DNA from: Gemmatimonadota bacterium
Lineage (GTDB): Bacteria; Gemmatimonadota; Gemmatimonadetes; Longimicrobiales; Gaopeijiaceae
Length of the DNA: 64,000 nt
Assembly: GCA_013002885.1 (NCBI GenBank)
Contig: JABDLS010000099.1
Coordinates: forward strand, 1-64,000
Reading direction: 5' to 3'
Each line of letters starts with the position of its first letter. Positions within the stretch are counted from its first letter, which is position 1. Below the pieces are notes generated by a model. It had not been told where the DNA came from and ran no database searches. It worked only from the letters and a program-made list of their open reading frames with translations. The translations under genes and the position numbers were made by a program. Positions 43,577 through 45,207 of the stretch are shown in pieces.

Positions 43577-44404
43577 ATGCGTCATCGAGCCGCGAGCACG
43601 TCGTTTCGTGTGGTCTTCGAATCCGTCAGAGACCCTCTACCGGTGGTCGTACATGATGGCTGGGTGGAGGCTTTTCCCTGGCTCGTGCAGGGCACGACGA
43701 CGTCGGGTCGGGTTTCTCCAGCCGGTGAGGGAGCTCCGCCATTCGACCTTGGCCTCTTCTCCGACGGGAGCGCGGAGGCCGTCGTGCGCCGCAACTGGCG
43801 CACCCTGGCTCAACACCTCGACGCGACGGCCGTCGTCCACGCCCCTCAGCCCCACGGGTGCGTGGTGCGCGTCTGGCCAGGCAGCGGGGCCACCGAGGAT
43901 GGTGTGGCCGGCGGCGACGGAGCACCGCAACTCGTCGATCCGTGCGACGGTCACGTGACCCGCCAACCCGGCGTCGTTGTCGCCGTCACCGTGGCGGATT
44001 GCGTGCCGGTATCCCTCGTGGATCCTAAGCAGCGTGTGGTGGCCATGGTGCACGCGGGGTGGCGGAGCGCGGCCGCCGGCATCCTCGAGCTGGCCCTGGA
44101 GACGATGACGGATCGGTTCGGCACCCGGACGGACGACGTGCACGTGCACCTGGGACCCGCGATCTGCGGGGCGTGCTACGAGGTGGGACCGGAGGTGCAC
44201 GAGGCCCTGGGCCAACAGGTTCCCTCTGGCCCCGAGCCCATCGACCTGAGGGGGGTCCTCGGGCGGCGCGCTCTGGAGTATGGCGCCGTCCCCGACAGAA
44301 CGACCGTATCGGGGCACTGCACCTTGTGCGGCGAGGCCGGTCTCTTCTCCCATCGGGGTGGTGATGCCCAGCGCCAGGTCGGTTTTCTGGGGATCCGCGG
44401 GTGA
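43577..44404 (+). CDS. pgeF: YfiH/laccase-domain protein (peptidoglycan editing factor PgeF)
   Basis: 275 aa copper/zinc-binding purine nucleoside phosphorylase-like multicopper domain protein; in bacteria linked to removal of mis-incorporated L-serine from peptidoglycan precursors. Metal motifs: HAPQPHG, VTVADCVPVSLVD (Cys), VAMVHAGWRSAAAGILE (His) and LGPAICGACYEVGPEV (Cys), then SGHCTLCGEAGLFSHRGG. The N-terminus is uncertain; a start downstream is possible. Its stop overlaps the next small gene in a GTGA junction. First gene of a three-gene cluster ending with the OsmC-like gene. Confidence 0.9.
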   Translation: MRHRAASTSFRVVFESVRDPLPVVVHDGWVEAFPWLVQGTTTSGRVSPAGEGAPPFDLGLFSDGSAEAVVRRNWRTLAQHLDATAVVHAPQPHGCVVRVWPGSGATEDGVAGGDGAPQLVDPCDGHVTRQPGVVVAVTVADCVPVSLVDPKQRVVAMVHAGWRSAAAGILELALETMTDRFGTRTDDVHVHLGPAICGACYEVGPEVHEALGQQVPSGPEPIDLRGVLGRRALEYGAVPDRTTVSGHCTLCGEAGLFSHRGGDAQRQVGFLGIRG

Positions 44405-44652
44405 GGCGGGGACCACCGCCCGCCGGTGCGGGCCCACCTCCCGCCGTTCCCGATCATCCGGCGGGCCTGTGCAGCATCTGCACTCACCACCGCGTCACGG
44501 GCAATCGTCGAGGCTCCAGGTTCTATCTGTGCGAGCTTTCGTCCTCCGACCCTCGGTTCTCCAGGTACCCACCCCTTCCGGTGCGGCGGTGTCGCGGCTT
44601 CGAGGAGCAGGGGGATGATGTATGGCCGTGTACCGAAACGGCCGACGATTGA
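44401..44652 (+). CDS. small cysteine-rich (zinc-ribbon-like) protein
   Basis: 83 aa. GTG start in a GTGA overlap with pgeF. Conserved-looking core of about 45 residues: LCSICTHHRVTGNRRGSRFYLCELSSSDPRFSRYPPLPVRRCRGFEE, quoted here in parts as C-x2-C ... RFYLC ... DPRFSRYPPLPVRRCRGFE, with four cysteines (two in CSIC, one in YLC, one in RRC) that could form a structural zinc site. I recall short proteins with this SDPRF-x-KYPxLPV-xxC pattern in many bacteria, without known function. The N-terminal 20 residues are proline-rich and may vary. Confidence 0.72.
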   Translation: MRRGPPPAGAGPPPAVPDHPAGLCSICTHHRVTGNRRGSRFYLCELSSSDPRFSRYPPLPVRRCRGFEEQGDDVWPCTETADD

Positions 44653-44739
44653 ACCTGGTCGCTGGCGCTTTGGCGCCGCCCGTCCGACTGTTCTTTCCTT
44701 GTCCACCACGACGATGCCATCCCCCACGAGGAGCAATGC

Positions 44740-45207
44740 GTGACTGAGCCGTTCTACATCGCCAAGGCCGAGGTCGAGAAGATCGACGGTCTGCACCGCC
44801 GAGGGACACTAGAGGACGGCACCACGGTCGACTTCGGTGTCCACGGGCCGGTAAAGGCCCACTATGGCCTCGACTCCCAACCCAATCTGCCGCTGCCCGT
44901 GGACTACCTCGTGGCTGCGGCTGCCGGCTGACTACTCGGGACTCTCAACGGCGCACTGGAGGTGCGCGGGATCGCAGTGCCGAACGGCGACATCAGCTGC
45001 AAGGCCGAGGGGACCAACGAGGTCGTAGATCGGATCATCGTGCTGACCCGGATCGACGTGCACTACACCATTCGTCTCCCTGCGGGGGTCGACCGGGAGA
45101 AGGTCGATCGAGCCTTGTCGAGCCATGTCGCCAAATGCCCGACTGCGCAGAGCATCAAGGACTCGGTGGAGATCGGCTGGACGGCAGAGTTAGTCGAGCT
45201 GGACTGA
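44740..45207 (+). CDS. OsmC-family protein with in-frame TGA at the catalytic cysteine (candidate selenoprotein)
   Basis: One continuous frame of 155 residues if the TGA at 44929-44931 is read as selenocysteine (residue 64). OsmC/Ohr/YhfA proteins reduce hydroperoxides with a cysteine following a small-residue helix; here PVDYLVAAAAG-TGA-LLGTLNGALEVRGIAV puts the TGA at exactly that site, and the partner cysteine is intact (AKCPTAQS, Cys133). The GTG start has GAGGAG six bases upstream. The frame is open on both sides and ends VEIGWTAELVELD. A hairpin typical of bacterial SECIS lies downstream of the TGA (44951-44967). Alternatives: nonsense mutation or sequencing error. No selA, selB or selC is in the window. 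Confidence 0.8.
44951..44967 (+). promoter_or_regulatory. bacterial SECIS-like stem-loop after the OsmC TGA
   Basis: In the mRNA, GCGCAC (44951-44956) pairs with GUGCGC (44962-44967) around the 5-nt loop UGGAG. The loop begins 26 nt after the UGA, within the 16-37 nt used by bacterial SECIS models, and a G is the second loop base as those models require. Six Watson-Crick pairs, inside the reading frame. Confidence 0.6.
45168..45188 (+). repeat. 21-bp direct repeat, copy 1, in the OsmC gene 3' end
   Basis: Identical to 51935-51955. Begins GGAGATCGGCTGG and encodes EIGWTA(E/D) in both places. It marks the left edge of the 45.2-51.9 kb accessory block. The 234 bp that follow (45208-45441) hold no gene I can support. 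Confidence 0.85.

Follow-up and report, generated by a model that had tools for sequence, protein, structure and literature searches.

We propose that the gene at positions 44740..45207 on the forward strand of the window, by which we mean the whole analysed stretch of 64,000 nucleotides, is an expressed selenoprotein gene of the OsmC superfamily, whose internal UGA codon (44929..44931, forward strand) is decoded by means of SelB and a SECIS hairpin as selenocysteine (Sec), residue 64 of a 155-amino acid, OsmC/Ohr-type product. We put the probability of this reading at roughly 95%. Sec insertion at UGA 44929 itself is near certain, judging from the sequence-based supports, namely the TGA column, a covarying SECIS element, continuing purifying selection and the presence of tRNA-Sec and SelB in the genome. 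The GTG codon at 44740 is the only start codon available 3' of the in-frame stop at 44650 and is preceded by a Shine-Dalgarno-like GAGGAG motif, read from the sequence 6 nt 5' of it (44728..44733, forward strand). The gene ends with an ordinary TGA stop (45205..45207, forward strand), near the positions at which its orthologues end with TAG, TAA or TGA. Re-reading of the sequence bore out the initial annotation in describing one frame from 44740 to 45207 that is interrupted only by the TGA at 44929-44931, with no further lesion and an intact second cysteine, Cys133, encoded at 45136..45138 (forward strand). The upstream gene at 43577-44404 of the window codes for a Cu-oxidase_4/YfiH protein, and such a gene adjoins OsmC-Sec both in those loci of the same genus that we examined and in several loci of other genera.

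The similarity to OsmC proteins that had been noticed on both sides of the TGA is carried by a single Pfam match, in which residues 51-146 align with OsmC (PF02566) across the codon (E 1.5e-13, 51.5 bits against a gathering score of 27.5). The Thermus thermophilus OsmC protein in the PDB likewise aligns with the read-through protein across the TGA. Placement of the TGA at the redox cysteine of the family was also confirmed, as distant Gemmatimonadota OsmC proteins and YhfA/OsmC homologues have a cysteine aligned with residue 64, among them a remote homologue encoded in the same genome as the window gene (L058). Sec64, Cys133, Arg20, Asp55, G67 and T68 are invariant in our alignment A1. An AlphaFold model built with 28 sequences reached a pLDDT of 87.5, and the best PDB matches found for it with Foldseek are OsmC/Ohr-like, with TM-scores to OsmC and Ohr structures of only 0.5-0.6. 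In the model, Sec64 is placed within a helix spanning residues 54-75 and Cys133 between two later helices.

In OsmC/Ohr proteins, the peroxidatic residue reduces a hydroperoxide, the second cysteine resolves the oxidized form and a thiol recycles the enzyme. By analogy, we infer a peroxidase role for the product of the window gene, in which peroxide is reduced via Sec64 and Cys133. The protein would take an OsmC/Ohr-type fold with Sec64 at the position of the peroxidatic cysteine of the family, and Sec64 would attack a peroxide or another oxidized substrate. Cys133, the likely resolving partner, would then resolve Sec64 through a selenenylsulfide, which a cellular thiol would reduce. Alternatively, the product may be a selenoprotein whose OsmC fold does not reduce peroxides but performs a different redox reaction, for instance the transfer of a persulfide, disulfide or thiol. 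The catalytic glutamate of OsmC/Ohr proteins lies at position -10 from the redox cysteine; its place is taken by Val54 in the window gene, next to the invariant Asp55. Due to the missing glutamate and the invariant aspartate beside its place, the protein may have a substrate or reaction other than that of Ohr. In addition, the protein scores just 29.8 bits against the OsmC_like_Se model and 21.4 bits against the SACOL1771 peroxiredoxin model, both below the respective cut-offs. Against this, Sec64, Cys133 and Arg20 are invariant, the fold is of the OsmC/Ohr type and the nearest cysteine-containing branch in our tree carries classic OsmC motifs. We therefore regard a reaction other than peroxide reduction as a possibility to be taken seriously, if a somewhat improbable one.

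Directly downstream of the TGA, we find a bacterial SECIS hairpin, GCGCAC-UGGAG-GUGCGC (44951..44967, forward strand), with stem arms at 44951-44956 and 44962-44967 and the UGGAG loop at 44957-44961. The 6-bp stem and the UGGAG loop are as originally described, whereas the start of the hairpin is not 26 nt past the TGA; it is the loop that begins at the 26th nucleotide, with 25 nt between, while the stem begins at the 20th. Published limits for bacterial SECIS elements are a loop of 3-9 nt, a stem of 4-16 bp, a distance of 16-37 nt from the UGA, a G in the first two loop positions and a minimum free energy of at most -7.5 (PMC13188914). With a 5-nt loop, 6 bp, a G at loop position 2, a distance of 25 nt and -8.8 to -9.7 kcal/mol, the hairpin lies within every one of these limits, which upholds its proposed fit to the bacterial SECIS model. 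In RNAfold, the 5-nt loop is 0.9 kcal/mol less favourable than a 3-nt loop closed by an additional U-G pair, and both forms are within the loop-length limits. A stretch of 57 nt folds 2.3 s.d. better than its shuffles. Furthermore, the hairpin is frozen at synonymous positions: in its six codons, the probability that two sequences have the same synonymous codon is 0.92, where codon use predicts 0.38; in the remaining 127 codon columns, it is 0.49, where 0.46 is predicted. One stem pair varies between A-U (25 sequences), G-C (7) and G-U (1), and the exchange between A-U and G-C couples a synonymous change in an alanine codon to a Val/Ala replacement; a second pair shows a compensatory change from C-G to U-A. 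Standard pairs make up 98.9% of the pair cells in 75 distinct sequences from three subgroups, compared to 0-72% when the partner is slid, where the 75 sequences are related by descent and the pair counts do not represent independent events. No Rfam family matches the hairpin, even at E 10.

The genome from which the window derives codes for a tRNA-Sec with the anticodon UCA (G000:C27:37817-37909, 69.4 bits) and for SelB (G000:C150:28085-29944, 338.8 bits, with the cut-off at 242). A search for the Sec machinery, as had been proposed, thus recovered these two components, whereas the draft assembly, which is 89.5% complete, yielded neither SelA nor SelD. Of 13 relatives from the same genus, 12 have SelA and 12 have SelD. 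The selA region of a sister genome aligns to contig G000:C155, whose start falls approximately 0.7 kb short of selA, and for selD the alignment runs to the end of contig G000:C15, approximately 5 kb short of the gene; beyond the end of G000:C15, no syntenic match to the sister selD region was detected. An OsmC-Sec gene occurs in 35 of the 43 genomes with at least two parts of the machinery and in none of the 16 genomes with no part (Fisher p 7e-9, not corrected for phylogeny). The presence of tRNA-Sec and SelB, together with the agreement of the hairpin with the SECIS limits, supports the earlier suggestion that this genome decodes UGA as Sec: SelB with Sec-tRNA-Sec would bind the hairpin at 44951-44967, leading to the insertion of Sec at UGA 44929. 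In the Sec-using relatives, most SelD genes (L050-L056 and others) themselves contain one TGA, whereas those of some relatives (G055, G043, G023, G028 and G058) do not, and the TGA-containing SelD proteins are probably selenoproteins as well.

Read-through of the UGA in the window gene would also be expected if the codon had been reassigned or were suppressed in this lineage, so that, with no need for a SECIS element, it is read as a standard residue such as Trp or Cys. However, the 33 orthologues that we compared end with TGA (17), TAG (14) or TAA (2), that is, 17 of them use TGA where others have TAG or TAA, which indicates that UGA remains a stop codon elsewhere in the same message. A SECIS element, tRNA-Sec and SelB are moreover present, and the OsmC-Sec trait tracks the Sec machinery. 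Based on the terminal TGA stops and the Sec machinery, we reject a change in the code, to which we assign a very small residual chance, in favour of decoding as Sec.

The TGA codon is conserved in every orthologue of the window gene that we compared. Our comparison set consisted of 59 genomes, that is, the genome containing the window (G000) and 58 relatives. Orthologues of the window gene, referred to as clade A, are present in 33 of the 59, the own genome included, with the other 32 being 52-89% identical and belonging to two families. All 33 genes have exactly one internal stop codon, which is TGA in each case and falls into one alignment column. A scan of contigs with a single protein as query, a method that finds close relatives only, yielded 40 named loci, nearly all from Gemmatimonadota and Longimicrobiales and some from genomes already among the 59, and TGA is found at that column in 40 of 40. 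These include loci on the single-contig, long-read chromosomes OX639991.1, OX638356.1 and OY282361.1. A search of 395 genomes from the phylum gave matches at E <=1e-6 in 117 of them, and each of the approximately 150 matches listed (E up to 8.6e-21) contains one TGA; among these listed matches, no Cys orthologue was found. The weakest matches, which we inspected in a separate step, are ordinary OsmC proteins that carry a cysteine at the aligned place, and a weak match in G210 that had been flagged as containing one TGA proved to be such a Cys form, with the TGA being its own stop codon. Two contigs of a bin labelled as Deltaproteobacteria, JAPPNF010000025.1 (L112) and JAPPNF010000186.1 (L114), each contain a clade A gene with approximately 70% identity; this bin is probably mislabelled or mixed.

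In a codon alignment of the window gene with its 15 closest orthologues, dN is 0.06-0.17 and dS 0.73-3.0 upstream of the TGA, and dN is 0.08-0.27 and dS 0.66-1.6 downstream of it. As dN is well below dS on either side, purifying selection acts both 5' and 3' of the TGA; the sequence 3' of it is hence translated, which also rules out the TGA as the programmed end of a 63-amino acid protein. The idea of a pseudogene or an assembly error, with a nonsense mutation or a miscalled base at the Cys codon, is a general possibility for a draft metagenome assembly that lacks SelA and SelD, but it is refuted by the same TGA in 33 of 33 and 40 of 40 homologues from independent assemblies, which makes a sequencing error untenable, and by the downstream purifying selection and the lack of any other lesion, leaving it hardly any probability. 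The initial annotation had considered a chance nonsense mutation unlikely, and the conserved TGA and the synonymously frozen, covarying hairpin argue the same way. As both the codon and the RNA hairpin are kept in the related genomes examined, we conclude that the gene is a real selenoprotein gene.

The TGA column is shared by three subgroups, A, which contains the window gene, B and C. The genome containing the window also encodes a subgroup B copy (L057, G000:C70:79260-79685), which is approximately 36% identical to the window gene and has a TGA at the same column, followed by a SECIS-type hairpin, GCGCGC-UGGAG-GCGCGC. In a maximum-likelihood tree, subgroups A, B and C form one branch (support 96/94) that includes no Cys sequences and stands beside ordinary OsmC/Ohr proteins, in a tree whose bootstrap is not fully settled and whose Cys sample is small. 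Given these two limits, a single ancient replacement of Cys by Sec is the simplest reading, but not proven. We think it rather likely that Gemmatimonadota hold a separate, Sec-only OsmC branch of three subgroups, often with two copies per genome, which goes back to one old Cys-to-Sec change and has persisted in several families, where we found no reversion to Cys. Another OsmC type, the fourth to have a TGA at the redox position, is group D (LGAUTSMT ... CPVHRTL; loci L164-L166, L168, L169 and L171-L173 of family f4 of the class). It is located elsewhere in the tree, scores approximately 50 bits against NF041052 and has a hairpin at a similar distance. Group D is probably an independent Cys-to-Sec gain.

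OsmC-like selenoproteins were first reported in 2005 with three sequences, a UxxT motif and assignment to COG1765 (PMC1088965), and again in later studies (PMC2398784, with UxxT; PMC9312934; PMC13188914), so that the kind is already known. The marine surveys that the initial annotation mentioned could be traced to the first two of these reports (PMC1088965, PMC2398784). Similar to the Sargasso Sea/GOS family (PF02566, COG1765), the window protein has the OsmC fold, Sec in place of the redox cysteine and a bacterial SECIS element directly downstream. The motifs differ, being UxxT in that family and U[LM][LV]GT in the branch of the window gene (U-L-L-G-T in the window gene itself), and Cys homologues exist for the published family, but we found none within this branch. 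The NCBIfam model NF041052 (OsmC_like_Se), which we take to represent the Sargasso Sea OsmC-like Sec family, has a curated cut-off of 95 bits; the 29.8 bits of the window protein rule out its membership, and no gene among 249 Gemmatimonadota genomes passes. By this cut-off, the sequence of the window gene places it outside the published OsmC-like Sec family, in a separate branch. The E. coli (1nye) and T. thermophilus (1ukk) OsmC proteins share the fold, the peroxidatic position and the second cysteine in a CP motif. Compared to OsmC/Ohr hydroperoxide reductases, to which it is approximately 20-25% identical, the window protein has Sec instead of Cys and Val instead of Glu at position -10. The YhfA-like OsmC proteins (COG1765; NF008009), for example the one encoded at G000:C109:82550-82852, have in common with it an acidic residue at position -9, and their cysteine aligns with Sec64; this example is a Cys form with 28% identity to the window protein and falls on a different branch of the tree. 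Among the open-access papers searched, judged by their titles and abstracts, none describes selenoproteins from Gemmatimonadota or Longimicrobiales.

Most bacterial selenoproteins have been reported with many Cys homologues. As no Cys member of this OsmC branch was found in the phylum, Sec appears to be hard to give up here. In the SECIS stem, there are two compensated pairs, with an amino acid change on one side matched by a synonymous change on the other, and these provide a clear natural test of the constraint that the SECIS element imposes. Ordinary annotation pipelines would truncate these OsmC-Sec genes at the TGA codon. The OsmC-Sec gene also identifies a group of Gemmatimonadota that is widespread but uncultured as a user of Sec.
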